Shown: piece after piece, positions 1,240 through 60,550 of the stretch | Numbering within the stretch: the first letter of the stretch is position 1 | Layout: the number at the start of each line of letters is the position of its first letter | From: Armatimonas rosea | GTDB taxonomy: Bacteria > Armatimonadota > Armatimonadia > Armatimonadales > Armatimonadaceae | Assembly (NCBI RefSeq): GCF_014202505.1 | Contig: NZ_JACHGW010000004.1 | Location: 558,001 to 622,000, forward strand | Length of the DNA: 64,000 nucleotides | Direction: 5' to 3' | The notes under the pieces: model-generated | Seen by the model: the letters and a program-made list of their open reading frames with translations, nothing else | Database searches by the model: none | What the model was told of the DNA's origin: nothing | Position numbers and translations under genes: made by a program

Positions 1240-1851
1240 ATGAAACAAAAGAAACTCAAGACCCAGACCTTCGGCGATGGAACGGGCAGTATCGGGGTGG
1301 CGGCGGGCTTTACGCTCGTGGACCAGAAGCGCGATTCGATTCTCCTCACCGGCCCCGACGGCACCCAAGTGGCACTGGGGCAGTACGGCTCGACCATTGT
1401 CCCCCAGGCGGTGCAGTTTGGTGCCGAGGGCTACTTCACGGTCACCCCCGACCTCTCCGACCCGGTGCGCGCGACCGCGGACTTTGTCGAGCAACAGGGG
1501 CGCAAGACCGGCAAGCCGATGCGCCTGAAGATCCTGGAGCAGAAAGCGGTTCCCAGCCAAGGGATGCGGGCGGTCCTGCTGCGCTATCGCATTGAAGGCG
1601 CCGCGCCGTTCGAGGGATTTGGGCTCTTTGCCGCCGGCCCCGTCGGTAATGGCATGGGCCAGACCTACGCCTCGTTTATCGGTGCCACCAGCGCCGCCGC
1701 CTTCAAAAAATATGCTCCCGCGATGCTGGCGATGTGGCAGTCCCGCAAGACCAACTTCGGGAGCAAGGCCTTTACCGAGGTCCCGGTCGAGCTGGCGGAG
1801 AAAATGGAGACCATGCGGCTCCAGGCGATCGAAGTGCGCAAGCTCCTGTGA
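1240..1851 (+). CDS. Hypothetical protein (203 aa)
   Basis: No family is recognised. The protein begins with a lysine-rich stretch (MKQKKLKTQTFGDGTGS) and has no signal peptide or membrane segment, so it is probably cytoplasmic. The sequence alternates beta-type segments in the first half (FTLVDQKRDSILLTGPDG) with helices at the end. The ATG at 1240 is preferred over a GTG six bases upstream because a TACCCT box sits six nt before it, as for other leaderless genes here. The upstream 18-bp element is shared with the PEP-CTERM gene at 6536, so the two may be co-regulated. The next gene starts two nt after the stop, suggesting co-transcription. Confidence 0.7.
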   Translation: MKQKKLKTQTFGDGTGSIGVAAGFTLVDQKRDSILLTGPDGTQVALGQYGSTIVPQAVQFGAEGYFTVTPDLSDPVRATADFVEQQGRKTGKPMRLKILEQKAVPSQGMRAVLLRYRIEGAAPFEGFGLFAAGPVGNGMGQTYASFIGATSAAAFKKYAPAMLAMWQSRKTNFGSKAFTEVPVELAEKMETMRLQAIEVRKLL

Positions 1852-1852
1852 G

Positions 1853-2239
1853 ATGCAACCCCTAACAGTCACCCCAGCGCGGGAGCGGGCGAGCACGAAG
1901 TCCGGCACGACCACCGAGGCCCACTTCTGGGAGTTTCCCACGGTTCCGGGGGCACGGCACTACACGATCACGGTCTGCAACAAGGCCGGGGGCATCCAGC
2001 AGCGCTACCACGTCCTCCAGAGCGATATCGACGCGACCGCCGTGACCAGCATCCCGATCCTCACCGCCGATGAGCCCTTTCCCCCGGCGATCCCGGTGCG
2101 GGAGGAGCTGACAGGGACGGTCCGGGCGAGTTTCTACCGGAGGGAGAGTGGCATTCGCTACCTACTTGTCTGGGGCCGCGGCTTCGATCCCGCCCCCTAC
2201 TACGAAAACAACCCGATCCACGTGGTCGTGGCCTACTAG
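1853..2239 (+). CDS. Hypothetical protein (128 aa)
   Basis: This small protein has no recognised family. It is rich in beta-type segments (HYTITVCNKAGG, RYLLVWGRGFDPAPYYENN) and might be a single compact beta-sandwich domain, but no diagnostic motif is visible. The ATG at 1853 lies two nt after the stop of the preceding gene, pointing to translational coupling. No signal peptide is present. The lipoprotein gene follows ten nt downstream, so the three genes may form one transcript. Confidence 0.6.
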   Translation: MQPLTVTPARERASTKSGTTTEAHFWEFPTVPGARHYTITVCNKAGGIQQRYHVLQSDIDATAVTSIPILTADEPFPPAIPVREELTGTVRASFYRRESGIRYLLVWGRGFDPAPYYENNPIHVVVAY

Positions 2240-2249
2240 GAAGAAAGTC

Positions 2250-4490
2250 ATGATACTACAACGACGAAACCTACTCAAGCTGGCGCTTGCCCTGCCCCTT
2301 GCGGGCTGTGGCGGGGGCTGGCAGCCCGGCTTTGGCCCCATCAAAGGTGGCGGATCAGGCGGCGACAACTCAGTCCCAACACGCTCCGTCGCAGGGCGCG
2401 TTGTTTTCCCCACCGGAACCCCCGTGACACTAAGTGCTCTCAAGGTGGAGACGGCACTGGGGGCGGTCGCTATCGACGGCAATGGAAGCTGCCAGATACC
2501 GACATCCCAAACAGCAACCAGCCCGACACTGGCCTGGGTACGTAACAATACGGCAGTTCTTTACCTAGGCTTTGTCGACGATGGGGACGCCACGATCGAC
2601 GCCACCTCTACTGCAGTCGCGCTTCTCTATCTCTCGCTGGGAGGCTTTCAGGCCGAAGAGGTCAGCAAGTCGCTCTTGCTCAGTGGGCTCCGCAAGCACG
2701 CCGCCACCGCGACGCTCGCCCAAGTTGTCGCTGCACGGGTCACTGCGGTTCCCACCGCGCTAGCCGAGGGCGATGCAGCACTCGGGGCGGCGCTTAAAAC
2801 CGCCCACAATGCCCTTGTCGCGGAGCTGAGCGCCACGGGAAGGGCCACCGCGACTCCCGCACCGAGTCGCTCGCGGGCAACCACAACGGCAAGCTTACTC
2901 TTAGAGCCCGCCATCGCACAAAGCAATCTCCGCGTGGATCAAGCCACGGCTCCCCAGACCTTCATCGCCACCAATCAAGCCCGGCGCTACTGCCAGGTAA
3001 TGACCTATGAGATCAACCGTGAGAACAAAAGCGGGCAACGCACCAACCCGTCAAAGGCACGCCTTGTCTCTTCCGTCTGGCTTCCCAGCACGCCCGCCCT
3101 CGGCTTCAAAGATACCGCAACAGGCTTCTTCAGCCGTAAAACCGCCTTTACCCCCGTCGCAACCGACCCCATCACACTCTCCATGAACGACGGTGATGCC
3201 AAGACGTTCTTCGAGGTCGTAGTTCTCGGGTCCTCGTCGCTGGTGGGCGATCCCCCTGTCTACAGCGAGCCGCGCTATGCCAGTGAGGTCGGAGTGTGGC
3301 GTGAGATCCGCGCCGATCTGAACCTCTCATCGTGGGTTGCCGATGTTCTTCTGGGCCTGCTCCTAGAGCTCTGGGGCCTACGGGATTTTGTGGCACAGAA
3401 AGGAGCCATTCGAGAGGCGGTCCAGAAGTTTCGTAAAGACTACGCCACTATCGAGACGCGGCTCTTCATTGCCGCAGATGCAGGCGATCTCTCCGGAGCA
3501 CTTACCGAGGTATTGCGGCTGCTCGCAACCAATCCTGCCTTTGTGGAGTACATGGTCTCTCTCTCGATCACGCTCAGTCCCAATCTCAAGAGCTATCTCT
3601 TTGCGGATACGGTCAAGAACAGCACGGCCCTGCTCGCCAAGTCGCTGATGACGGTGCTAAACGTGGCAGGGCTGGTTCTAGGAGCGGGTGATCTGGGAGC
3701 GGTGATCGTGGACCTGGCAAGCTCGGAACCAGTGGAGCGCTGGAGCGCGACACTTGTCACTAGCGATGTTACCCTGAGCCCAGCGTTGGCGACGATTGCG
3801 CCAGGCGACAGCCTCGCGCTCAGTGCACGGCTTCCGAATGCCTTGGGAGCAAATATTGTCTACAAGTGGTCACTTGTAGGAAGCGATCTCGCGACTCTGA
3901 CAGATGTGAAAGAGGGCAAGTCAGGCTTGAGTTTTGAGACATCAGGCTCCGATATTTCACTTGCCACAACCCCCTCAACCAAGGGGACTCTCACCGTGAC
4001 GGTCGAGGCAGTTGAGCTTAGTTCGGGGGGAAACCGCACGTCGCGCGGGCAAGCCCTCTCGACTGTCACCGTCAATGATGACGTCCCCTTTGGCTCGGTT
4101 CGGGTTGTCTTCGATGGCAAGACCCGCATCTTGCCCAAGTACAGTACCCAGCGCCTCGGCAGCACCACGGGCCTGGCGCTCGGGGCACTCTACCAGGCGG
4201 TCTCGACTGCCTACGGGGGTAAGGTCGCCCTCAAGCTGACGCTTCAGTTCGCCACGAAGACCCTCGTGGTAGGGAGCACCGCCACGGTCACCAGCGACTA
4301 CGACCTCACCTACGAGCTCCCCGCAGGCAGCGACTCTCTCTACTTTGCCCCGTCTGCCCCCGGGACCTTGACCGTCACCGAGGTCGGCCCTGGCTACTTT
4401 GGCTACACGCTGAGCGTGAACCTCAAGGGCCTGCGCGGTGTTCCGACCACAGGCCCGGCGACCTTCAAAGGCTGGGTGACGGACTACTAA
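2250..4490 (+). CDS. Large secreted lipoprotein of unknown function
   Basis: The 746-aa product begins with a twin-arginine-like start (MILQRRNLLKLALALPLAGCGGG). The LAGC lipobox places the lipidated cysteine near residue 19, so the mature protein should be anchored to a membrane facing the periplasm or exterior. A glycine- and serine-rich linker follows. The C-terminal third has Ig-like beta segments (VTLSPALATIAPGDSLAL, KGTLTVTVEAVEL) reminiscent of Big/cadherin-like extracellular modules. No catalytic motif is visible. The ATG at 2250 was chosen because it starts the signal sequence. The 3' end overlaps the convergent GH42 gene by 26 nt. Confidence 0.7.
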   Translation: MILQRRNLLKLALALPLAGCGGGWQPGFGPIKGGGSGGDNSVPTRSVAGRVVFPTGTPVTLSALKVETALGAVAIDGNGSCQIPTSQTATSPTLAWVRNNTAVLYLGFVDDGDATIDATSTAVALLYLSLGGFQAEEVSKSLLLSGLRKHAATATLAQVVAARVTAVPTALAEGDAALGAALKTAHNALVAELSATGRATATPAPSRSRATTTASLLLEPAIAQSNLRVDQATAPQTFIATNQARRYCQVMTYEINRENKSGQRTNPSKARLVSSVWLPSTPALGFKDTATGFFSRKTAFTPVATDPITLSMNDGDAKTFFEVVVLGSSSLVGDPPVYSEPRYASEVGVWREIRADLNLSSWVADVLLGLLLELWGLRDFVAQKGAIREAVQKFRKDYATIETRLFIAADAGDLSGALTEVLRLLATNPAFVEYMVSLSITLSPNLKSYLFADTVKNSTALLAKSLMTVLNVAGLVLGAGDLGAVIVDLASSEPVERWSATLVTSDVTLSPALATIAPGDSLALSARLPNALGANIVYKWSLVGSDLATLTDVKEGKSGLSFETSGSDISLATTPSTKGTLTVTVEAVELSSGGNRTSRGQALSTVTVNDDVPFGSVRVVFDGKTRILPKYSTQRLGSTTGLALGALYQAVSTAYGGKVALKLTLQFATKTLVVGSTATVTSDYDLTYELPAGSDSLYFAPSAPGTLTVTEVGPGYFGYTLSVNLKGLRGVPTTGPATFKGWVTDY

Positions 4491-6468
4491 CCAGCACCCG
4501 GACGCCGCGCGTCTCCAGCGTGGCGTCCCCGGTGAGGGTCTCCCCGGTCAGCAGGTCGGTCCACGCGCCCGGTGCCAGTGCGACCGTCGCGGGCTCCGCG
4601 TGGTTGAGCAGGTAGACAAACTCGCCCCGCTGGGTCACCTCGACCCCGGCGGGCGGCGCGACCCCATCGGCCAGCGGCGAGCCAATCCCCTTCTCCCGAC
4701 AGAGCGACCAGACCAGGCGGCGCAGTCCACGCGCCTCGGGCTGGGTGGCGACATAGTAGGCGACTCCCTCCCCAAACGCATTTCGGGTCACCGCAGGCTC
4801 CCCGGCGTAGAAGTCCGCCGTGTAGGTCGCCACGGTCTCCGCCGCCTCTAGCCGCACACGGTCACAGAGCAGCGTCGCCTCAAAGGTCTCGCCATCGTCG
4901 AAGCGCACTCCGTTCTTCTCACTCGCCATCACCGCATCGGTCTCCTCCACCCAGAGCCCGAGCACGTCGCGCAGAGGGCCCGGAGCGCCGCCCGCGTGCA
5001 CCGTGTCGAACTCGTCGGTGAGGCCGGTAAACACCGACGCGAGCAGCGTGGCTCCGGCCGCCACCCGTGCTTTGAGCGCCTCGGCCTGTGGGAGCGTCAG
5101 CATCGAGAGAGTCGGGGCGATGATCACGTCGTAGGCCGAGAGGTCGGCATCGGGACGAAGCACCTCGACCTGGATTCCCAGGCTCCAGAGCGCGACAAAG
5201 TAGCTGCGGCAGAGCTCGACATAGTTCAGGTCGCGGGTCGGCCCCGACGAGAACGAGAGACCCCACCAGTTTTCCCACGAGAAGAGCAGCGCCACGCGCG
5301 CCGCAACCCGCTTGCCCAGCGGCGCCTCCCCGAGTGTCTTGAGCTCGCCACCAAGTGCCTTCACTTCCTGAAAGACCCGCGTGTCGGTGCGGTTGCGGTG
5401 CTCCATGATCGCGCCATGCAGCTTCTCGATCCCGCCTTGCCCGCGCCGCCACTGAAAATACATCACCGAGTCCGCGCCGTGTGCCACGGCCTGGAACGAC
5501 TGGAGCCGGAGCTCGCCGGGCAGCTTGACCGTGTTGTAGTACTGCCAGTTCTGCTGCGACGGGCTCTGCTCCATCAGGAGAAACGGCTTGCCGTCCTTGA
5601 GCCCCCGCATCAGCGAGTGCGTGAAGGCGACATGGGCGGGCGGGCTCCCCTGCGGCGGGTAGCTATCCCAGCTGACAACGTCCATTTCCTTGGCCCACTC
5701 GTGGTAGTTGAGTGGGTAGAACGTCCCCATCAGGTTGGTCGTGATCGGGATATTCGGCGTGACCTCACGCAGAACCGCGGCCTCCGCACGGTAGCAGCTG
5801 AGAAGGCTCTCGCTCTGGAAGCGCTGCCAGTCCAGCTTCAGTGCCTGGATCGCGCCCTCGCCGTTGCGGTACGGGGGCTCGATCTGCGCCCAGTCGGTGA
5901 AGGTATGCCCCCAGAAAGTCGTGTACCAGCGCACGTTCAGCTCGGTGAGGGAACCGTACTTGGCTTGGAGCCACTCCCGGAACTTTTGCGCGCAAGTCTC
6001 GCACCAGCAGTAGGTGCCGTACTCATTGCTGACATGCCAGAGGAGCACCGCAGGGTGGTCTTTGTAGCGCTCGGCGAGCTTGCGGGCAAGACCGGTCGAG
6101 AGCCGGCGGAAGTTTGCCGAGTTAGGACAGAACGTGTGGCGGTTGCCGTGGCGGCGGCGCACCCCCATGTCGTCGGCGGTGAGCACATCCGGGTACTTCT
6201 GGGTCACCCACGCCGGCACCGATGCCGTGGCGGTGGCGAGGCAGATCTTCACGCCCCCCTCGGCGAGCTTATCGAGAATCTCATCGAGCCAGTCAAACGT
6301 AAACGTGTCTTCGTCGGGCTGGAGGCTCACCCAGCCAAAGACCGGGAGGGTCGCGATATTGACATTGGCCTCCCCCATCAGCGCCACATCGTCGGCCCAG
6401 ACCGCACGCGGCCACTGCTCGGGGTTGTAGTCGCCACCATAGAGAAAGCGGGAAAAGTGTGTATTCAT
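4465..6468 (-). CDS. Beta-galactosidase, glycoside hydrolase family 42
   Basis: The 667-aa protein starts MNTHFSRFLYGGDYNPEQWP, the classical GH42 opening. Family members hydrolyse terminal beta-D-galactosides with retention of configuration. The acid/base glutamate is E149 in HVSNEYG and the likely nucleophile is E300 in LLMEQSPS. Cys114, Cys154, Cys156 and Cys159 fit the zinc site known in several GH42 enzymes. The three expected domains (TIM barrel, trimerisation domain near 390-600, small C-terminal beta domain) fit the length. There is no signal peptide, so it acts in the cytoplasm on imported galactosides. A TAGAAT box seven nt before the ATG suggests leaderless transcription. Confidence 0.93.
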   Translation of the reverse strand: MNTHFSRFLYGGDYNPEQWPRAVWADDVALMGEANVNIATLPVFGWVSLQPDEDTFTFDWLDEILDKLAEGGVKICLATATASVPAWVTQKYPDVLTADDMGVRRRHGNRHTFCPNSANFRRLSTGLARKLAERYKDHPAVLLWHVSNEYGTYCWCETCAQKFREWLQAKYGSLTELNVRWYTTFWGHTFTDWAQIEPPYRNGEGAIQALKLDWQRFQSESLLSCYRAEAAVLREVTPNIPITTNLMGTFYPLNYHEWAKEMDVVSWDSYPPQGSPPAHVAFTHSLMRGLKDGKPFLLMEQSPSQQNWQYYNTVKLPGELRLQSFQAVAHGADSVMYFQWRRGQGGIEKLHGAIMEHRNRTDTRVFQEVKALGGELKTLGEAPLGKRVAARVALLFSWENWWGLSFSSGPTRDLNYVELCRSYFVALWSLGIQVEVLRPDADLSAYDVIIAPTLSMLTLPQAEALKARVAAGATLLASVFTGLTDEFDTVHAGGAPGPLRDVLGLWVEETDAVMASEKNGVRFDDGETFEATLLCDRVRLEAAETVATYTADFYAGEPAVTRNAFGEGVAYYVATQPEARGLRRLVWSLCREKGIGSPLADGVAPPAGVEVTQRGEFVYLLNHAEPATVALAPGAWTDLLTGETLTGDATLETRGVRVLVSSPSPSL

Positions 6469-52077: not shown

Positions 52078-52156
52078 CCTACACAGCGCTGTAACCAAAG
52101 CGGAACTTCCGATGATAAAATATCGTAGGTTAAGCAACGGAAGGTAGAGCACAGTG

Positions 52157-53578
52157 ATGCAACGACGGCGTGGGTCTTTTCTTTTTGGCGCGGGGGTCGT
52201 CCTGGCCACCGGAGTCGCCTTTGCCGGTGGGGTGCGCCTTCGCCAAGGCCACCAGGCACCGCGAACCACAACCCTAGAGGCGGCTCCCGGGCGAGCCCAG
52301 GTGGCGGAGAACGGGCATGCCGTGACTCCCCGTGGGAGCGAGGCGCAGGACCTAGGGGGAACCTTTGAGACGGTCTACGCCCTGGTCAAGGAGCAGTACT
52401 ACGACAAGCTTCCCACCGACACCAAGATGTCCCAGAGCAGTGTCAAGCTCATGCTCGCCGCTCTGGAAGACCCGAACTCCTACTACCTAGAGCCCGAGCA
52501 GCGCTCGCTCTTCGAGGCCGAGGCGCAGGGGCGCTTTAGCGGGATCGGGGCGGCGCTAAGCCTCCAGTCCACCAAGACCAACGGCTACACGGACTACAAG
52601 ATCACCGTAGTCGCTCCCTTGCCCGGGTCACCGGCAGAGAAGGCGGGCCTCAAGCCAGGGGATATCATCACCCATGTCGATGGCAAGTGGGTCCTGGGCT
52701 ACGACCCCCTGCTCTCCTTTGCCAAGGTCGCCCAGCAGTTCCAGAACCGCGAGGTCGATGAGAAGGTCTACGAGAAGGCCCGAACGAGTGCCCGCGACCG
52801 AATCACCGGGGGAATTCGCCTCCACGCCGCAGAGATGCTGCTCCGCGGCGACAAGCTCCTGGCCAAGACCATCGCGGCTAAGGACTCCTACTCGCTCACC
52901 GTCCAGCGCAAGGGCCAGAGCGCCCCACTCAAAGTGGAGATTACGCCGGACACGACCACCGCTCCCACGCTAGCCAGCAAGTCTCTGTCGGGTAAGGCCA
53001 GCTACCTCAAGCTCCCCTATCTCAGCCAGGGCAGCGACGAGGCAGTCGCCACCGCCCTGAAGGCACTCCCAGCGGATAGCGCCGGCCTCGTGCTCGATCT
53101 CCGTGGCAACCCCGGGGGCTCGTTTGAGGCGATGCAGCGGATCGCGGGGTTGCTTGCGGGACGCGGGGTGGTCGCCCAAGAAGTGGGACAAGCCGGCAAG
53201 AAGAACAACCTCCTCGCCGCCGATGCCGCAGTCTTTAAGGGCCCCCTCACCGTGCTGGTCGATGGCGGAACGGCCTCGACCGCGGAGGCGCTTGCCGCCT
53301 GCCTGAGCGAGCGCGGAGGGGCGACTCTTGTCGGTGAGAAGACCTTTGGAGACGCTCTCGTGCAAGGGATGTACCGGATGGAGGATGGCTCCGCCTTTAC
53401 GCTGATCACGGGCAAGCTCGTCAGTAGCAAGGGAGTCGCTTGGAGCGGCGTGGGGCTCAGTCCCCAGGTAGCTGTCGCGTCGGGAACCCCGGAGTCCGAG
53501 CTACTCGCCCGCGCGGTCGCGACCCTCAAGAGTCGCCCCCAAGTCGCCGCCACGGCTCCGACCGGAGGGAAGGGTTAA
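52157..53578 (+). CDS. S41 (CtpA-like) peptidase with altered catalytic lysine
   Basis: The 473-aa exported protein has a signal/anchor (FLFGAGVVLATGVAFAGG), a domain found before PDZ in carboxy-terminal processing proteases, a PDZ domain (about 170-220, SPAEKAGLKPGDIITHVDG) and the S41 core. The nucleophile Ser374 in GGTASTAEA is kept, but the general-base lysine of TFGKGLVQ is replaced by Asp399 in TFGDALVQ, so normal peptidase activity is doubtful. A stretch of about 60 extra residues separates parts of the PDZ region. The intact paralogue follows two nt later. The ATG at 52157 is preceded by GGAAGG. It may be a partner or substrate-presenting subunit. Confidence 0.85.
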   Translation: MQRRRGSFLFGAGVVLATGVAFAGGVRLRQGHQAPRTTTLEAAPGRAQVAENGHAVTPRGSEAQDLGGTFETVYALVKEQYYDKLPTDTKMSQSSVKLMLAALEDPNSYYLEPEQRSLFEAEAQGRFSGIGAALSLQSTKTNGYTDYKITVVAPLPGSPAEKAGLKPGDIITHVDGKWVLGYDPLLSFAKVAQQFQNREVDEKVYEKARTSARDRITGGIRLHAAEMLLRGDKLLAKTIAAKDSYSLTVQRKGQSAPLKVEITPDTTTAPTLASKSLSGKASYLKLPYLSQGSDEAVATALKALPADSAGLVLDLRGNPGGSFEAMQRIAGLLAGRGVVAQEVGQAGKKNNLLAADAAVFKGPLTVLVDGGTASTAEALAACLSERGGATLVGEKTFGDALVQGMYRMEDGSAFTLITGKLVSSKGVAWSGVGLSPQVAVASGTPESELLARAVATLKSRPQVAATAPTGGKG

Positions 53579-53580
53579 TC

Positions 53581-55089
53581 ATGGTACGCAGTGTTATCAA
53601 GGGAATCGCCGCCACGAGCCTGATCGGGGCCGCGTTCTTCAGTGGCTTCAATAGCCAGGCCCTCCTCGGCCGCAAAGAGGACCCGCTCCGCACCACGCCC
53701 CTCCTGCTGGCCACCCGCCTGAGCGAGGCAACCCGGCCCGCATCGGCCAAGGCCGGCTCCAGCGATCTCTCGCCCATCGACACCTACCACAGTGTCCTGG
53801 AGAAGATCATCAGCGAGTACGGCACCCCGCCCACCGAGCCCAAGGCCCTGGGAAAATGGCGCGATCGGCTACGCTACGCGGGGATCGAGGGGATGCTTCT
53901 GGCGATCGGGGACCGCTACACCGAGTACTGGGACCCCGAGGAGTTCAAGCGTAACATGGAGGATACGCAGGGACGCTTCTTCGGGATCGGGGCACGGCTG
54001 GATGTCACCACCGACAAGAAATACCCGATGATCATCGAGCCGATCGAGAACTCCCCCGCCTGGCGCGCCAAGCTCAAGCCCGGCGATGCCATTACGTCGG
54101 TGGATGGCAAGTCCGCGCTCCTCTCGGACCAGCAGCACCTCGACGATGTGATCAAGCGCATCAAGGGCGAGGAGGGCACCAAGGTCAAGCTGACAATCCG
54201 CCGTGGCACCGAGGTGAAGGACTATGTCTTTGTCCGAGCTCAGGTCAACTCCCCGGTGATCGACTCGTGGATGCAGGACGAGGCCGCCAAGATCGGCTAC
54301 ATCCGCCTGGACCTCTTTAGCGAGGAGGCCGATACGCAGTTTGGGATCGCCCTGGAGCGACTCCAGCGCCAGGGGATGAAGGCCCTGATCTTCGACCTGC
54401 GCAACAACCCTGGAGGGATGCTCCATGTGGCACAAGACCTGGCATCGCGCTTCCTCCCCGGCGGACCGGTGACCTGGCTCAAGGAGAAGAACGGCCAGAT
54501 GCGCTCGCTGGATGTCAACACGAGCCTGCGCCGCGGCCCACTCGCGGCCGGCAAGATTCCCACAGTCGTGCTGGTCAACGGCGGCTCCGCCAGCGCGTCG
54601 GAGATTGTCTCCGGTGCGGTCCAAGACGGCGGCGCGGGCTTCTTGGTCGGAACGCGCACCTTTGGCAAGGGCCTCGTGCAGACCATCATCCCGCTGCAAG
54701 AGGGCGAGGGCGCGGTCAAGATCACGACCCAGCGGTACTACACCCGCAACAAGCGCGATATCAACACCTTCCGCGATGAGTCCGGCGCGGTCACCAAGCT
54801 CGGCGGTGTCAAGCCGGACATGGTCCTCACCGAGACCGACAAGGATATCGAGGCACAGTGGAACGCCCTGCGCGACAAGCCCTTCGACCGTAAAGCCGCC
54901 GCGAAGTTCAGCCCACAGGTTGCCAAGGGGATCGAGCTCCTCAAGGCACGCATGGCGGGCAAGCCCTGGCCCAAGTCGGAGAAGGACCTCCCCGACAAGC
55001 CCGAGAAGTCGGAGACCGTCAGCGCCAAGCCTAAGGACGCGGTCGGCCCGTACTCCAAGCCGACTCACGAGCCCAAGCTCACCGAGTAG
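53581..55089 (+). CDS. S41 carboxy-terminal processing protease
   Basis: The 502-aa protein has an N-terminal signal/anchor (VIKGIAATSLIGAAFFSGFN), a PDZ domain (SPAWRAKLKPGDAITSVDGKS) and the S41 catalytic core. Ser338 lies in GGSASASEIV and Lys363 in TFGKGLVQ, the normal catalytic dyad of CtpA/Prc enzymes. It should degrade or trim C-termini of envelope proteins. A Lys/Pro-rich C-terminal tail follows. The ATG at 53581 has GGAGGGAAGGG upstream; the preceding paralogue ends two nt before it, so the two form one operon. A terminator follows at 55104-55132. Confidence 0.92.
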   Translation: MVRSVIKGIAATSLIGAAFFSGFNSQALLGRKEDPLRTTPLLLATRLSEATRPASAKAGSSDLSPIDTYHSVLEKIISEYGTPPTEPKALGKWRDRLRYAGIEGMLLAIGDRYTEYWDPEEFKRNMEDTQGRFFGIGARLDVTTDKKYPMIIEPIENSPAWRAKLKPGDAITSVDGKSALLSDQQHLDDVIKRIKGEEGTKVKLTIRRGTEVKDYVFVRAQVNSPVIDSWMQDEAAKIGYIRLDLFSEEADTQFGIALERLQRQGMKALIFDLRNNPGGMLHVAQDLASRFLPGGPVTWLKEKNGQMRSLDVNTSLRRGPLAAGKIPTVVLVNGGSASASEIVSGAVQDGGAGFLVGTRTFGKGLVQTIIPLQEGEGAVKITTQRYYTRNKRDINTFRDESGAVTKLGGVKPDMVLTETDKDIEAQWNALRDKPFDRKAAAKFSPQVAKGIELLKARMAGKPWPKSEKDLPDKPEKSETVSAKPKDAVGPYSKPTHEPKLTE

Positions 55090-55149: not shown

Positions 55150-56367
55150 ATGAAGCACACCCTCGACTCTTCGCTAGCCTGTCCCAGCTGCGGTGCCCAG
55201 GCGCGTGTCTTTAAGAACGGGCAGAGCACCTGTGCCTACTGCGGAGCGACACTTCCTCCTCTTCCCTTCACCCACCCCGGCGGCAGGTTTCCGCACACCT
55301 CCCCTCTCCGCATCGGCATGAAGGCAAGGCTCGGTGGGCGCGAGTATGTCGCGGTGGGCCGCCTTCTCTTCCGCGATTCCGAGGGCTACACCTGGGAAGA
55401 GTGGGTCCTGCTCTCCCAAGATGGCGATGCCCAGTACCTGGAGTTCGACGAGGGCAAGTGGAAGCTCACCCACTACTGGCCCGATGGCGACGACTCGGTG
55501 CAGGTGCGCTCCTACACCGAGGGACAGCCCGTCACTCTGGGCAACAAGGCTTATATCGTCACCTCTGTCGGAGTCGCGACGGTCACAGGAGTCGAGGGCG
55601 AGATCCCTTGGCCGGTCCGCGTGGGCGAGAGTAGCCCCTACGCCGACTTTGGCTCCGGCGACACGATCTTCTCGGTCGAGCAGACCAGCGAGGGGATCGA
55701 GTGGTTTCGCGGACGGCACCTCGATGCCGCCGAGGTCTACACGGTCTTTGGACTCCAAAAAGAGGCCCAAGGTGAGCTGAAGAAAGAAGAGGTTCAGGGC
55801 GACAAGCGGCGCTTTGGGTGCCTCTGGCTCAACCTCTCGCTCCTCGCGTTTATCTTGTGCGCGGTCGCCTCGGGAACGCCGGGGCACCAGGTCTACAGCA
55901 CCCAGCTCACGGCGGATCAAGTGGCCGAAGAAGGCTCGGTGGTGGGGCCCTTCGCGCTCACAAAGACCGGTGCTCCCCACCGCCTCTACCTCTCCACAGG
56001 CTCGCTCAGCCAGACATCGGTGTGGGTGCAGGGGGTGCTCGAGGATACCAGCGGGCCGGTCTTTGAGGCAGAGCAAGAGTTCTGGGACGAGACGGGCTAC
56101 GACGATGGCCCGTGGCACGAGTGGGTGACCGAGTCCCATGCGGACTTTCGCCTGGCCAAGCCCGGCGACTACCGGGTTCGCGTCTACGCCGACCCCGAGG
56201 CCGCCGCCACCGGAGCCCCCGTGGTCGTCCGCCTCTACGAAGGTGTCCCCCACGCCACACCGCTCGCCTGGTTCGGAGGAATCGGGCTTGTCCTCGGGAC
56301 GGTCTTCTGGCTCCAGGGCTCGCCCGGTGCGCGCAAGAGCCTCGTGGAGGCGATGCAAGACTCATGA
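55150..56367 (+). CDS. DUF4178 protein with N-terminal zinc ribbon
   Basis: The 405-aa protein begins with a zinc ribbon (CPSCGAQ...CAYCGA, residues about 11-33). A DUF4178 domain (GMKARLGGREYVAVGRLLF, EEWVLLSQDGDAQYLEFDEG) and later two membrane segments (LWLNLSLLAFILCAVAS near 225 and WFGGIGLVLGTVFWL near 385) follow. DUF4178 genes repeatedly occur with DUF350 and membrane-bound spermidine synthases, as here. The molecular role is unknown. The next gene overlaps its stop as ATGA, so the cluster is one operon. Confidence 0.8.
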   Translation: MKHTLDSSLACPSCGAQARVFKNGQSTCAYCGATLPPLPFTHPGGRFPHTSPLRIGMKARLGGREYVAVGRLLFRDSEGYTWEEWVLLSQDGDAQYLEFDEGKWKLTHYWPDGDDSVQVRSYTEGQPVTLGNKAYIVTSVGVATVTGVEGEIPWPVRVGESSPYADFGSGDTIFSVEQTSEGIEWFRGRHLDAAEVYTVFGLQKEAQGELKKEEVQGDKRRFGCLWLNLSLLAFILCAVASGTPGHQVYSTQLTADQVAEEGSVVGPFALTKTGAPHRLYLSTGSLSQTSVWVQGVLEDTSGPVFEAEQEFWDETGYDDGPWHEWVTESHADFRLAKPGDYRVRVYADPEAAATGAPVVVRLYEGVPHATPLAWFGGIGLVLGTVFWLQGSPGARKSLVEAMQDS

Positions 56368-56558
56368 GAACCTGGGGCTACCGACTCGCGACACTGGTGC
56401 TCCTGGCCGCCTTTGCCTTCACCTGTGCACTGGCCTACTTTGGCTGGCTCCTCCCCGGAAGCGCCACCACGACGGCGCAACGCAACGCAGTTCATAGCCG
56501 AGCCAGTGCGCGAGTCGGGACGCATATCACCGGTGGTGGAAGTCATTTTGGAAAGTAA
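56364..56558 (+). CDS. Small membrane protein (64 aa) in the polyamine cluster
   Basis: This short protein has one transmembrane helix (LATLVLLAAFAFTCALAYFGW) and ends with a glycine-rich tail (THITGGGSHFGK). Its ATG overlaps the DUF4178 stop. In other genomes a DUF4247-type small protein occupies this place, and the tail composition is similar, but the match is weak. It lies four nt before the DUF350 gene. Too little is visible for a function; I treat it as a membrane component of the same complex by position only. Confidence 0.6.
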   Translation: MRTWGYRLATLVLLAAFAFTCALAYFGWLLPGSATTTAQRNAVHSRASARVGTHITGGGSHFGK

Positions 56559-56562
56559 TGCA

Positions 56563-56856
56563 ATGAAAAAACTACTTGTCACGCTCTTCTCCCTCTCTCT
56601 GACGGCCCTGCCAGCCCTCGCCCAAGAAGCCGAAGCTCGGTCCCGGCCCAGCCTGCTGGAGGGAATTGTCTCCACCGTTCTCTACGGTGCCATCGGGATC
56701 GCGCTTGCCATTATCGGCTTCAAGCTCTTCGACCGCGCCATCCACGCCGATATCGAAAAAGAGATCTTCGAGAACAAGAACATGGCCGCCGCGATCCTTG
56801 CTGGCGCGGTGGTCCTCGGTGTCTCGCTGATTGTTGCGATGACCATCCACTCGTAG
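56563..56856 (+). CDS. DUF350 family membrane protein
   Basis: The 97-aa protein starts with a signal/anchor (LLVTLFSLSLTALPALAQ) and has two further helices (IVSTVLYGAIGIALAIIGFKLFD and MAAAILAGAVVLGVSLIVAM). This is the DUF350 pattern with IxxENxAxA (IFENKNMAAAILAGAV). DUF350 proteins (YjfL-type) occur next to spermidine synthase-like and PspA-linked genes and are suspected to be small channels or membrane sensors; neither is proven. The ATG at 56563 begins MKKLLV. It is seven nt before the membrane SpeE gene. Confidence 0.8.
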   Translation: MKKLLVTLFSLSLTALPALAQEAEARSRPSLLEGIVSTVLYGAIGIALAIIGFKLFDRAIHADIEKEIFENKNMAAAILAGAVVLGVSLIVAMTIHS

Positions 56857-56862
56857 GCGATA

Positions 56863-58392
56863 ATGCAAGAGCAAGACCGCCGTGAGGCGCTGACACTGCT
56901 GACAAGTGTCTTTCTCGTGGCGGCCTGTGGCCTGATCTACGAGCTACTCCTGGCGACGATCTCGTCGTACCTGATTGGCTCGTCGGTCACCCAGTTCTCC
57001 CTCTGTATCGGGGTCTTTATCGGGGCGATGGGGATTGGCTCCTATATCTCCCAGTTTGTCACCACGAATCTCATGCGCTGGTTTCTCACGGTCGAGATCC
57101 TGCTCGCGGTGGTCGGGGGAGTCTCCGCCTGGGCACTCTTTGGGGCATACTCCTACCTGGGGAGCATCTACTACGCCGCGCTCTTTCTGCTGATCGGCCT
57201 GATCGGCGGGCTGGTCGGGATCGAGCTGCCGCTGCTAACACGCCTGCTCTCCCAGTACGGTGCGCTCAAAGAGACGATCGCACAGGCGCTCTCGTTTGAC
57301 TATGTCGGCTCGCTCTTGGGCTCTATAGCCTTTCCCCTGGTGCTCCTTCCCGCACTAGGAATGACCCGGACGGCCTTTGTGGTCGGGCTCCTGAACCTGG
57401 GGATCGCGGTCTGGAACCTCAAGGTCTTCGCGCCGCGGCTCAAGAGCATCCGCCCTCCCTTGGTCCTCTGCGCCTTCCTAGCCGCCTTTCTCGCCTCGGG
57501 CCTCGTGGTCGCCGACCAGGCCGGGCGGTTCTTCGAGAAGCGGCTCTACGACGATGAGATTCTCTTTGCGCGGCAGACTCCCTACCAGAAGATCGTGGTC
57601 ACCCGCTTTCGGGAGGACCTGCGGCTCTACCTCGATGGCAATCTTCAGTTCTCCTCCCTGGACGAGCACCGCTACCACGAGTCCCTCATCCACCCCGCGC
57701 TGAGCCTGGCAGCCGTCCACGAGTCGGTCTTGGTCCTGGGGGGCGGGGACGGCCTCGGGGTGCGCGAGGTGCTCAAGTGGCCGGGAGTCAAGCAAGTGGT
57801 CTTGGTGGATATCGACCCCGCCATGACCAAGATCGCCCGCACCTACCCCAGCCTGCGCGCCCAGAACGCGGGGGCGCTCGACGATCCCCGGGTGACCCTG
57901 GTCCACGAGGATGCCTTTACCTACCTGAATAAAACGGGTGCGCTCTTCTCCGTGATTATCGGGGACCTGCCCGACCCCAACAGTGAGGCACTCGCCAAGC
58001 TCTACTCCCGCGAGTTCTACGCCATGATCCGCCGCCACCTCGCTCCGGGGGGCATGTTTGTTACCCAGGCCACGTCGCCTCTGTTCTCACGCGATGCCTT
58101 CTGGTGTATCGAGCGCACGGTCCATGCCGCGGGCTTTGCGACCACGCCCTACCATGTCTATGTCCCCAGCTTCGGCGACTGGGGCTTTGTCCTGGCAAGA
58201 GACAGCGCCACTGCCCCCAAGCTCACCGATACCAAGCTCACGGGGCTCTCGGTCAAGTACCTCACCGACGAGCTCCTTCCCACACTGACAGTCTTCGATG
58301 CGGACTCAAAGCCGACCCTTGTCTCCGCCTCCACTCTGGATCGACCGCAGGTGGTGCGCCACTACGAGCGGGGAGCCAAGCGGTGGGAGTAG
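56863..58392 (+). CDS. Membrane-bound polyamine aminopropyltransferase (SpeE family)
   Basis: The 509-aa protein has an N-terminal seven-helix membrane domain (residues 10-215, including GVFIGAMGIGSYIS and LLIGLIGGLVGIELPLLTRLL) fused to a spermidine-synthase Rossmann domain. The SAM/decarboxylated-SAM site is GGGDGLGVREVLKW near 290, and the catalytic GDLPDPNS region lies near 365. It should transfer an aminopropyl group from decarboxylated SAM to putrescine or a related acceptor at the membrane. The SAM decarboxylase gene follows with a ten-nt overlap, supplying the co-substrate. Fused membrane SpeE enzymes are common but their substrates are often unproven. Confidence 0.88.
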   Translation: MQEQDRREALTLLTSVFLVAACGLIYELLLATISSYLIGSSVTQFSLCIGVFIGAMGIGSYISQFVTTNLMRWFLTVEILLAVVGGVSAWALFGAYSYLGSIYYAALFLLIGLIGGLVGIELPLLTRLLSQYGALKETIAQALSFDYVGSLLGSIAFPLVLLPALGMTRTAFVVGLLNLGIAVWNLKVFAPRLKSIRPPLVLCAFLAAFLASGLVVADQAGRFFEKRLYDDEILFARQTPYQKIVVTRFREDLRLYLDGNLQFSSLDEHRYHESLIHPALSLAAVHESVLVLGGGDGLGVREVLKWPGVKQVVLVDIDPAMTKIARTYPSLRAQNAGALDDPRVTLVHEDAFTYLNKTGALFSVIIGDLPDPNSEALAKLYSREFYAMIRRHLAPGGMFVTQATSPLFSRDAFWCIERTVHAAGFATTPYHVYVPSFGDWGFVLARDSATAPKLTDTKLTGLSVKYLTDELLPTLTVFDADSKPTLVSASTLDRPQVVRHYERGAKRWE

Positions 58393-58727
58393 GTGTCCAT
58401 GTTCTCCTCGACGGCTACGAGCTTCGTCCCGAGCGCCTCACCAACGCGCACGGGCTGGCCCAAGCGCTCCTGGCTGCCGCCCAAGCCGCCGAGATGACTC
58501 CCCTCTCCGAGCCGGTTGTCCATGTCTTTCCCGGCGGCGGCGTGACCGCCTTCCTGCCCCTGGCGGAGTCCCACCTTGCCCTGCACACCTACCCCGAGCG
58601 GGGCTATATCGCCGCGGACTGCTTCACCTGTGGGCTTCCCGATGGCGCCGACCGCGCGGTGTCGGTTCTCTGCGAGGCGCTAGGCAGCGGGCGCTTTGAG
58701 CTTCGCAAGCTGGAGCGGGGCGGATGA
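58383..58727 (+). CDS. speD: S-adenosylmethionine decarboxylase proenzyme
   Basis: The 114-aa protein is a short bacterial SpeD (SpeH). It is cleaved between Glu62 and Ser63 in ESHLALHTYPE to make the pyruvoyl cofactor; His68 and Cys83 complete the active site. The product, decarboxylated SAM, is used by the adjacent SpeE. The GTG at 58383, overlapping the SpeE stop by ten nt, gives the standard length; ATG starts further upstream would add over 90 unrelated residues. The following membrane gene overlaps its stop (ATGA). Confidence 0.9.
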   Translation: MGVGVHVLLDGYELRPERLTNAHGLAQALLAAAQAAEMTPLSEPVVHVFPGGGVTAFLPLAESHLALHTYPERGYIAADCFTCGLPDGADRAVSVLCEALGSGRFELRKLERGG

Positions 58728-59746
58728 GGCCGCGCTGGATTGTCTCGGCGCGCTACGACCTGGCGTTCTTTATCGGCTCGTGCGTCCTGACCTTTGCCTT
58801 CTACGGGCTCTACCGGGCGGCACACCACCTTGGGTTCTTCCTACACGGCGATAGCATCCTCATCACCTACTTCTTCTTCACCGCCCTCTTCGACCACCCG
58901 CACATCTTCCAGACCTTCGCCCGCACCCACGCCGACCGCACGGAGTTCCAGAAGCGCAAGGGGCTCTACACCTGGGGGCTGGCAGGCTTTATCGCGGTCG
59001 GGTTTATCGGTGTGGCGCTCAAGCTGGAGGCCTATCTGATTGTCGGGGCGGCGATCTACGGGACCTGGCACATCATCAAGCAGCACTACGGCTTCCTCAA
59101 GATCTACAAAGCCCTCAACGACGACCGCGCACCGCTGGACAACTGGCTCGATGGGCTGACCTACTTCACGGGAATGTTTGCCTGCTTCTTCCAGGACTAC
59201 GGCGATGTCCGCGGCCCCCTGGTGGTCTACGGCAGTGTGAGCGTCCGTGTCCCCAACCTCCCCGGCGACTGGGGCGAGGGGCTCTGGGTGGTCTTCTTGG
59301 TGCTCCTGACGCTCTTTGGGTTCCGCCAGGTGGGCCGTGCGATGCTGGGGCAGCGGGTAAACCTCCCCAAGATCCTGCTGATGCTCTCGGCGCTCGGGAC
59401 ACACTACTTTGTCTTCTTTGTGACCGCCACCCCATTCCTGGTCGCTGAGGCGCTGGAGACAGCCTTCCACGATGTGCAGTACCATGCCTGGATGGCCCAC
59501 TATGAGAAACGCCGCTTCCCCGGGATTCGCCATGTCGCGCTCAAGTGGGGACTGACGGCGCTGGCCTACGGCCTGATTGTCGGGGTGATCGAGATCAAGG
59601 GGCTCCTCGCCCCCGAGAGCTGGGCGATGTGGGCCTTCATTCCCTTCACGATGGTGGTCATCTTCCACTACTTTGTCGATGGGCTGATCTGGCGCATCCG
59701 CGACTACCCCGAGCTGGGCACCCTACTCTTAAAGCCCAATAACTAA
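58724..59746 (+). CDS. Histidine-rich multi-pass membrane protein
   Basis: The 340-aa protein has about eight membrane helices and is not assigned to a named family. Twelve conserved-looking histidines lie at helix edges, in motifs FDHPHIFQTFARTH (57-69), TWHIIKQHYG (115-122) and FHDVQYHAWMAHY (248-260), with a later IFHYFVDGLIWR. This pattern recalls membrane di-iron oxygenases/desaturases or heme-binding proteins, with enough histidines for two metals. Its ATG overlaps the speD stop, so it is translated with the polyamine genes. A role in modifying a polyamine or lipid is an inference from position. Confidence 0.7.
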   Translation: MRPRWIVSARYDLAFFIGSCVLTFAFYGLYRAAHHLGFFLHGDSILITYFFFTALFDHPHIFQTFARTHADRTEFQKRKGLYTWGLAGFIAVGFIGVALKLEAYLIVGAAIYGTWHIIKQHYGFLKIYKALNDDRAPLDNWLDGLTYFTGMFACFFQDYGDVRGPLVVYGSVSVRVPNLPGDWGEGLWVVFLVLLTLFGFRQVGRAMLGQRVNLPKILLMLSALGTHYFVFFVTATPFLVAEALETAFHDVQYHAWMAHYEKRRFPGIRHVALKWGLTALAYGLIVGVIEIKGLLAPESWAMWAFIPFTMVVIFHYFVDGLIWRIRDYPELGTLLLKPNN

Positions 59747-59761
59747 CCGGAGACCTCCCCC

Positions 59762-60550
59762 ATGAGCTATCGTACCGTACAAGACCCCGTGAACTACACG
59801 ACCGGCGTGGTGCGCGCCACGGGCAGCGGCCCCCTAGGCTCCGCCAAGGCCGCTGCGCTCCGCAACCTGGCGCTGGCTATCCGCACGATCCCGGTCACGG
59901 CCACCACCACGGTCAAGAGCTATGCCATGGAGAGTGGTACGGTCGAGACCAAGCTAGCCGCCCTCCTGCAAAACGCCCGCACTGTCGCCGAGACTGTGGG
60001 AAAAGAGGGCATCACAACCATCACGGTCGAGATTCCCCTCTATGGCGCACGCTCGGTCGCCGCGGCCGTGCTTGCCGAGGTGATCCTCGATCCACGCGAC
60101 CTGCATGCCAATGCTCCCATTCCACGCCCTGAAGCCCGTCCCGCACCACGTCCCCTCCCGCACAAGCGACCTCTGCCGCTGACCCCACCGCGTGACCGTG
60201 GCCCGTTTACAGCGCTACTTGTGGACTGCCGTGGCCTCGGGGTTCAGGCAGCGCTGAGCCCCAAGCTCTACGATTCCAGCGGCCACGAGCTCTACGGCCC
60301 CCTGCGCGTGGATATCGACGATGCCATCATAGGGGGAATTGTTGGCTACCCACGCTCGGTTGAGGAGGCGCTCAAAAGCAAGCGTGCAGGGGCTCGGCCA
60401 CTGATCGTGCAGGCCCTGGGTCCCAAAGGCTCCTCCAAGGTCGACATGGTGCTCAGCAACGACGATGCCCTGCGCGTGATCCAAGCGGACCAGCAGGCGG
60501 GCTTTTTGGCACAGTGCCGGGTGCTCCTACTCTGCGATCCGCCGCGCTAG
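59762..60550 (+). CDS. LPP20-like domain protein
   Basis: The 262-aa protein has an N-terminal LPP20-type segment (VVRATGSGPLGSAKAAALRNLALAIRTIPV). The C-terminal half (FTALLVDCRGLGVQAALSPKLYDSSGHELYG, then PLIVQALGPKGSSKVDMVLSNDDA) occurs in many uncharacterised envelope-linked proteins and flagellar assembly-like factors. No signal peptide is visible at this start, although a Pro-rich linker divides the halves. GGAG precedes the ATG by six nt. It follows the membrane gene by 15 nt and closes the cluster. Function is unknown. Confidence 0.7.
   Translation: MSYRTVQDPVNYTTGVVRATGSGPLGSAKAAALRNLALAIRTIPVTATTTVKSYAMESGTVETKLAALLQNARTVAETVGKEGITTITVEIPLYGARSVAAAVLAEVILDPRDLHANAPIPRPEARPAPRPLPHKRPLPLTPPRDRGPFTALLVDCRGLGVQAALSPKLYDSSGHELYGPLRVDIDDAIIGGIVGYPRSVEEALKSKRAGARPLIVQALGPKGSSKVDMVLSNDDALRVIQADQQAGFLAQCRVLLLCDPPR

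Follow-up and report, generated by a model that had tools for sequence, protein, structure and literature searches.

The window analysed here is a stretch of 64,000 nucleotides of Armatimonas rosea (contig 4, NZ_JACHGW010000004.1, positions 558001-622000, of a 6.3-Mb genome). At 55150-60550 it carries seven packed genes, all on the + strand (Table 1). They include a membrane-embedded aminopropyltransferase of the SpeE type (hereafter SpeE-M), the S-adenosylmethionine (AdoMet) decarboxylase SpeD, a small membrane protein with a C-terminal lysine (the K-tail protein) and a His-rich polytopic membrane protein. The cluster is one instance of a bacterial cell-envelope system, widespread and uncharacterised, in which a membrane polyamine enzyme is combined with a lysine-ended small membrane protein and often with the His-rich protein. 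All seven open reading frames (ORFs) were confirmed. The spacings between them are, in order, -4, +4, +6, -10, -4 and +15 nt, and the tight packing described in an initial annotation of the window thus holds, with overlaps of -4 to -10 nt and gaps of +4 to +15 nt. Its labels for the DUF4178, DUF350, SpeE and SpeD genes are firm by Pfam and NCBIfam models. The starts had to be revised for DUF350 (56563) and SpeD (the GTG at 58383). Apart from the last gene, the genes occur in the same order in three other loci (L002, L004 and L086) and in partial order in more, and therefore the arrangement is not due to chance. The DUF4178 gene adjoins SpeE-M in many loci. Gene content, co-occurrence, the lysine tail, twin-arginine translocation (Tat) signals and conserved residues were all computed.

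Table 1. Genes of the packed run, with positions in the window (TM, transmembrane; aa, amino acids).
Feature	Position	Strand	Family matches and residues
DUF4178 protein	55150..56367	+	PF13785 E 1.1e-17; CxxC pairs (zinc-ribbon-like) at N-terminus, hydrophobic C-terminal segments
K-tail protein, 64 aa, single TM, candidate acceptor	56364..56558	+	C-terminal GGGSHFGK-stop
DUF350 (YjfL-type) small membrane protein	56563..56856	+	PF03994 E 1.7e-12
SpeE-M, 7-TM segment and fused aminopropyltransferase domain	56863..58392	+	NF002956/PRK03612 627.9 bits (curated cut-off 472)
SpeD, class 1b AdoMet decarboxylase, GTG start	58383..58727	+	PF02675 E 5.8e-28; TIGR03330 (class 1b) 97.3 bits (curated cut-off 75.65)
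His-rich polytopic membrane protein, unnamed superfamily, 340 aa	58724..59746	+	conserved H60, H116, H249, H315
Lineage-specific gene, end of packed run, assigned to no family	59762..60550	+	

The lysine tail of the small membrane protein

The K-tail protein had no match beyond chance in Pfam or NCBIfam. The initial annotation had listed it correctly as a small membrane protein, but had missed its strongest feature, the tail. A hidden Markov model (HMM) built from the 64-aa protein recovered the window protein and nine homologues, all ending in GGGxxFGK. No other GGGxxFGK-stop occurs in the genome of the window protein, whose tail has S in place of P. Across 291 genomes of the window's phylum, Armatimonadota, the DNA pattern for GGGPxxGK-stop was found at 12 true sites (14 raw matches less two that end in TGG, a non-stop), 10 of them within 1.7 kb of SpeE-M and 2 not, and a reversed-pattern control gave 8 matches. 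One genome (G004) carries two SpeE-M sites, on C270 and C681, each with a GGGPxxGK-ending ORF immediately upstream.

A candidate ORF with a hydrophobic N-terminus and a terminal lysine was present in 23 of 36 SpeE-M loci, a set that includes nine plasmid stretches. The tails vary by group: GGGPGAGK in Cyanobacteria, GGTGGGK and SGRGGK in Polyangia, GGSRSGK in Bacteroidota, GGGPESGK in Ensifer and GPSHK in Novosphingobium. The cluster of Novosphingobium sp. ES2-1 carries two DUF4178 genes, a tail protein of 48 aa (WP_193828724.1), DUF350, SpeE, an amine oxidase and speD. Further candidates were found in Tritonibacter and Gemmatirosa and, as lipoprotein-like proteins, in a gammaproteobacterium and Alteromonas. 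The terminal lysine is thus kept on otherwise dissimilar tails such as GGGPGFGK, FYHK, GHHK and GPSHK. We also read 18 loci from a Cytophagales-type panel, that is, from the order of genome G071; 15 had been fetched for carrying the distant form of the His-rich protein, L134 was added, and L132 and L133 were fetched as SpeE-M loci without a His-rich gene. In all 18, the small protein at the equivalent place ends in HK. The counts of 23/36 and 18/18 derive from searches for K-ending ORFs and are hence selected. Unselected evidence comes from the HMM set of 10, the Cytophagales-type gene calls and the controls. These gene calls show the small ORF in 10 of the 18 loci, and every one ends in HK. 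When the last residue of small hydrophobic ORFs lying 20-750 nt upstream of SpeE was scored, K was found in 20 of 36 loci, followed by G or S (6); in flanking windows K was found in 2 and 1 loci. The same control on the 18 Cytophagales-type loci gave K 16 and G 16, the G-ending ORFs being DUF350. The possibility that the tail is a chance feature is countered by the last-residue control and by the genome-wide pattern with its reversed control.

Directly upstream of the cluster, at 52154-55089, two PDZ-containing proteases of the S41 (C-terminal processing) type are encoded one after the other. Tail-specific proteases near a protein whose C-terminal tail is conserved are possibly of interest.

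SpeE-M and its predicted orientation

The GGGDG and DxxDP residues are retained in the window SpeE-M. In an alignment of 35 of the 36 loci (the fragment L096 was excluded), D296, D368 and D371, including the Asp of GGG(D/E)G, are present in 35/35 sequences. Catalytic residues and the YHE motif agree with the solved polyamine aminopropyltransferases 7xif, 1uir and 6bq2; these soluble SpeE/thermospermine synthases share the catalytic domain and the GGG(D/E)G, DxxDP-type and YHE motifs with SpeE-M, but are without a TM domain or a lysine-tailed partner. The TM region of SpeE-M has four conserved acids, E27, E121 and D146 (35/35) and E78 (34/35). The operon contains SpeD both in the window and in 18/18 Cytophagales-type loci.

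Averaged over the 35 sequences, SpeE-M has seven hydrophobic segments with about 10 Lys and Arg residues on the N-terminal side versus about 1.3 on the opposite side (sums over the printed loop values). Because of this asymmetry, the positive-inside rule predicts that the N-terminus is inside and the SpeE domain outside the cytoplasm. The charge pattern of 29 K-tail proteins is N-in/C-out in 24, the opposite in 1 and tied in 4. Homologues of an operon flavoprotein (PF01593 or related flavin adenine dinucleotide (FAD) domains) were found in 24 loci, and in 22 of these a twin-arginine motif can be read by eye ahead of a hydrophobic stretch; of the exceptions, L123 has RK and L091 was not read in the correct frame. 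The amine oxidase of the relatives' operons is therefore often predicted to be Tat-exported. The SpeE-M domain, the tail of the small protein and the flavoprotein are all predicted from sequence to be extracytoplasmic, and the three predictions agree.

The additional SpeE-M copies of genomes G076 and G078 (L072 and L073) consist of DUF350 and SpeE without DUF4178 or a lysine-tailed protein, and L072 has an amine oxidase; they are a second class of SpeE-M locus. In a Bacteroidota metagenome-assembled genome, a DUF2617 protein follows SpeE-M (L064, 8887-9390). DUF2617 is described as a partner in a variant of the 7TM-SpeE/DUF350/DUF4178 operons (PMC11237479).

The His-rich protein and its association with SpeE-M

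Of the 340 aa of the His-rich protein, 14 are histidines, where 12 had been counted. Neither Pfam nor NCBIfam held a family matching the protein at E up to 1, a profile of the family matched no PDB sequence at E up to 10, and for 21 aligned members (the window protein included) Pfam E values went no lower than 0.003. A scan of species genomes yielded 20 relatives with 39-90% identity (best segment), from records of Armatimonadetes, Cyanobacteria, Bacteroidetes/Cytophagales, Polyangia and Delta- and Gammaproteobacteria. In a superfamily alignment of 43 of 45 sequences (the short L020 and L131 were excluded), H60, H116 and H249 are conserved in 43/43 and H315 in 42/43; D12, D57, Q120 and Y253 are invariant too (43/43). 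The close group of 21, which includes the window protein, has five extra histidines, H58 and H259 in 21 and H69, H121 and H227 in 20.

Two AlphaFold2 models were obtained, with predicted local distance difference test scores (pLDDT) of 79.6 and 83.6, the better one with about 10 TM segments. In that model the four conserved histidines lie one per predicted helix, approximately mid-helix (44-70, 102-131, 238-264, 300-322), and their spacing within pairs is 56 and 66 residues. As judged from the model, this pattern is compatible with a metal or heme site buried in the protein, which probably binds one or the other. Foldseek found no match to the PDB at E <= 0.001 for either model. The best VIA-align matches, with Z 6.3 (5.5 A over 166 residues) and Z 6.1 (6.1 A over 177 residues), were microbial rhodopsins and lie within the tool's stated background, so that no fold was assigned. 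An internal repeat between the two halves was unsupported (hhalign E 0.44). The Brp/Blh carotene dioxygenase family PF15461 did not appear, at E up to 10, among the matches of the 21 members; a genome search for PF15461 gave no match anywhere, controls included, and speaks neither for nor against this family. Membrane desaturase/hydroxylase (histidine-box diiron) Pfam families were likewise absent from the matches of the 21 members, the histidine-box pattern itself being unscored. The earlier proposal of a metal-dependent enzyme is thus partly supported: four histidines kept in 42-43 of 43 homologues agree with a metal or heme centre, but the models matched no known fold.

The initial annotation had suggested checking whether the His-rich gene co-occurs with speE, and it does. 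In whole-genome searches SpeE-M was above the curated cut-off in 19 of the 20 carriers; the exception is the most distant relative, with split SpeE-M matches below the cut-off. In the phylum panel, 8 genomes are close carriers (bits >130), one of them by a fragment at a contig end, and 20 carry distant proteins of a single family, f14 (48-75 bits). SpeE-M was above the cut-off in 13/291 genomes, covering 8/8 close carriers and 5/283 others (Fisher p 1.1e-12, ignoring kinship). The Cytophagales-type panel of 194 genomes holds 44 superfamily carriers, 19 of them close, and 67 genomes with SpeE-M, which occurs in 41/44 His carriers vs 26/150 others (Fisher p 1e-20, again ignoring kinship). The three exceptions are G327, G333 (with a fragment) and G397 (SpeE split over two frames). 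The panels share genomes with the set of 20 carriers (5 by contig matching, 9 by handle). In the Cytophagales-type panel the distant form of the His-rich protein sits in the SpeE-M operon, whose order is SpeD, DUF4178 (one or two genes), small protein, DUF350, SpeE, a flavoprotein of about 550 aa and the His-rich gene. The last was present in 16 of the 18 operons read and absent from L132 and L133. Among the 20 relatives, SpeE lies within the fetched stretch in five (L002, L004, L008, L017 and L019), in more than one gene order. Adjacency of the two genes recurs with varied gene orders in these five, in L086 and in the 16 Cytophagales-type loci. Taken together, the His-rich protein is very probably a member of the SpeE-M system.

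A constant alternative partner was sought for His-rich genes unlinked to speE, and in several such loci the neighbours scanned were unrelated (leucine-rich repeat, MurD, MutS, OEP, CinA, histidine kinase, AI-2E transporter and others). Beside f14 members in seven loci (L079-L085; G154, G156, G158, G128, G136, G185, G126), an ORF of about 160 aa often lies directly upstream; the one scanned, in L082, is a GyrI-like small-molecule-binding domain. In L004 a ubiquitin-like conjugation set (1479-4896; E1/ThiF-like by eye, a JAB protease and an E2 of the UQ_con family) directly precedes the DUF4178 gene with a 4-nt overlap. It was rejected as a system part, as such E2/JAB genes were found beside DUF4178 in L004 only.

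For the last gene of the packed run, the former LPP20-like label is withdrawn, as no Pfam family matched at E up to 1 and NCBIfam matches were far below their cut-offs. Among 50 sequences examined, it was present in four only, the window, L002, L086 and L087, all of its own genus or family, and it is therefore placed outside the wider system. Its homologues in L002, L086 and L087 have a signal-like segment at the N-terminus. The gene is probably accessory.

A possible lysine modification at the cell envelope

For topology, acceptor, donor and chemistry, and for the role of the His-rich protein, we infer the following course. SpeD would form decarboxylated AdoMet in the cytoplasm, and the aminopropyl group would be delivered through or across the TM domain of SpeE-M with its four conserved acids. 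The outward-facing domain would then transfer it to the C-terminal lysine on the outward-facing tail of the small membrane-anchored protein. In many relatives the product might next be acted on by the Tat-exported FAD amine oxidase. The His-rich protein would be a frequent, optional component whose four-His core probably binds metal or heme, and which most likely performs an oxidative step on the product or takes electrons from one. We favour, tentatively, the reading that the terminal lysine of the K-tail protein is the target of SpeE-M and is modified outside the cytoplasm. An oxidative role of the His-rich protein is a reasonable possibility that falls short of being probable. Potentially, aminopropyl groups pass from decarboxylated AdoMet through the 7-TM domain onto the peptide's lysine, and the amine oxidase and the His-rich protein then oxidise the product to a surface group (a hypusine-like residue, a peptide-borne cofactor or a crosslink), which would be a new bacterial protein modification; this fuller chemistry is speculative and, taken as a whole, rather doubtful. 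An attachment of the polyamine to a lipid, as first suggested, found no evidence, and the small protein with its C-terminal lysine is the better acceptor candidate.

Several observations weigh against the proposed lysine modification. An outward catalytic domain requires a charged nucleotide donor outside the cytoplasm, which is unevidenced. Near SpeE-M, 13 of the 36 loci have no K-tail gene; these include Burkholderia, several Bacteroidota and some loci that are fragmentary or cut by contig ends. The surroundings of the window cluster, to which the search was limited, held no amine oxidase. The distant f14 proteins of 20 phylum genomes occur without SpeE-M above the cut-off, and 15 of the 20 His-rich loci of the species-genome scan have no SpeE in the fetched stretch. 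In 10 of 28 SpeE-M genomes (G006, G046, G112, G062, G064, G066, G068, G069, G071 and G079) no PF02675 match was found, in a search that did not cover class 2 SpeD (PF01536), and one of these genomes is 96% complete with an intact K-tail cluster. A source of decarboxylated AdoMet is therefore lacking there, and consequently some lineages may use AdoMet as donor, the decarboxylase may be unrecognised, or SpeE-M may be a plain spermidine synthase. In the window's genome, moreover, SpeE-M is the sole strong aminopropyltransferase, and it could serve spermidine synthesis alone. That last point favours a rival explanation, in which SpeE-M would be a plain membrane spermidine (or agmatine) aminopropyltransferase tied either to the export of polyamines or to stabilising the membrane. 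The K-tail protein would be a small subunit for regulation or assembly, and the His-rich protein would act as a transporter or a sensor. The agreement of the catalytic residues and YHE motif of SpeE-M with those of the soluble enzymes points the same way, as does the published proposal of polyamine sensing at the membrane (PMC11237479). However, this explanation accounts neither for a C-terminal lysine kept across unlike tails nor for a Tat-exported amine oxidase within the operon, nor for the predicted outward catalytic domain, and we consider it somewhat unlikely.

The genomes without PF02675 also speak for an enzyme that takes AdoMet itself and moves a 3-amino-3-carboxypropyl (or methyl) group onto the lysine tail, with SpeD as an optional later or parallel step. 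MccD does so on a peptide-nucleotide (PMC12250964), and a fungal relative in fold is methylating (PMC10349129). Such a donor appears improbable, since the acid of GGGDG, according to PMC10349129 required for decarboxylated AdoMet, is retained in every aligned SpeE-M, and SpeD stands in the operon in the window and throughout the Cytophagales-type loci. The His-rich protein, for its part, might receive electrons from the exported amine oxidase and serve as a membrane electron carrier of the diheme or quinone-linked kind. One conserved His per helix with the observed pair spacing, and the position of the gene behind that of the Tat-exported flavoprotein in Cytophagales-type operons, would suit this role; the five further histidines of the close group exceed the need of two hemes, a cytochrome b fold was not matched and no oxidase was seen beside the window cluster, which makes it unlikely. 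It could finally be argued that the His-rich protein has nothing to do with the polyamine genes and that lineage or horizontal transfer alone brings them into one genome. The 15 of 20 His-rich loci without SpeE in the fetched stretch, with unrelated neighbours where scanned, can be cited for this. Nevertheless, co-occurrence in two separate groups, the phylum and the Cytophagales-type genomes, and adjacency in differing gene orders make this very improbable.

The conserved part of the cluster was rightly said to recur in bacteria with an unknown product. A PspA-linked operon with 7TM-SpeE, DUF350, a lipoprotein and DUF4178, of unknown product, has been described (Ravi et al., 2024; PMC11237479), and polyamine monitoring or aminopropylation of other substrates was suggested for it. 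In the literature searched, no other paper with DUF4178 was met. This PspA/CesT-Tir operon shares with the window the 7TM-SpeE, DUF350 and DUF4178 genes and a membrane or lipoprotein partner, but PspA and CesT/Tir were not found among the window's seven genes and the three flanking genes scanned. The text of that paper available to us mentions neither a lysine tail nor a His-rich protein, and the word lysine is absent from its main text. The literature searched on DUF350/DUF4178/spermidine synthase operons and on lysine aminopropylation, with supplements and paywalled papers outside its scope, yielded nothing on the lysine tail or the His family. The operon core is thus already in print, the lysine tail and the His family were not met in the literature searched, and the initial view of an undescribed system is supported for the whole set. 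The nearest working analogue of SpeE-M is NHMT, the fungal N-terminal histidine methyltransferase, which likewise joins 7 TM segments to a spermidine-synthase-fold domain and acts on the terminus of secreted proteins (PMC10349129). It differs in that it methylates, has Ile where SpeE-M keeps Asp (35/35) in GxG(D/E)G, and has a 7TM region reported in fungi only (PMC10349129). Microcin C MccD/MccE transfer an AdoMet-derived propylamine onto a ribosomal peptide conjugate, but the target is the phosphoramidate of a peptide-nucleotide and not a lysine, and the text available mentions no membrane enzyme (PMC12250964). In diatom silaffins protein lysines bear aminopropyl units; these are eukaryotic proteins, however, with many modified internal lysines, and belong to biosilica (PMC4557024).

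The family model names membrane SpeE an ordinary polyamine aminopropyltransferase. If the lysine tail is indeed modified, such names mislead in the 67/194 and 13/291 genomes that carry SpeE-M, and the reaction would be a new class of protein modification, possibly an extracytoplasmic one. For the His-rich family there is now a defined genetic partner, together with a conserved core of four histidines, and the presence of the lysine tail on one small protein makes the question directly testable.

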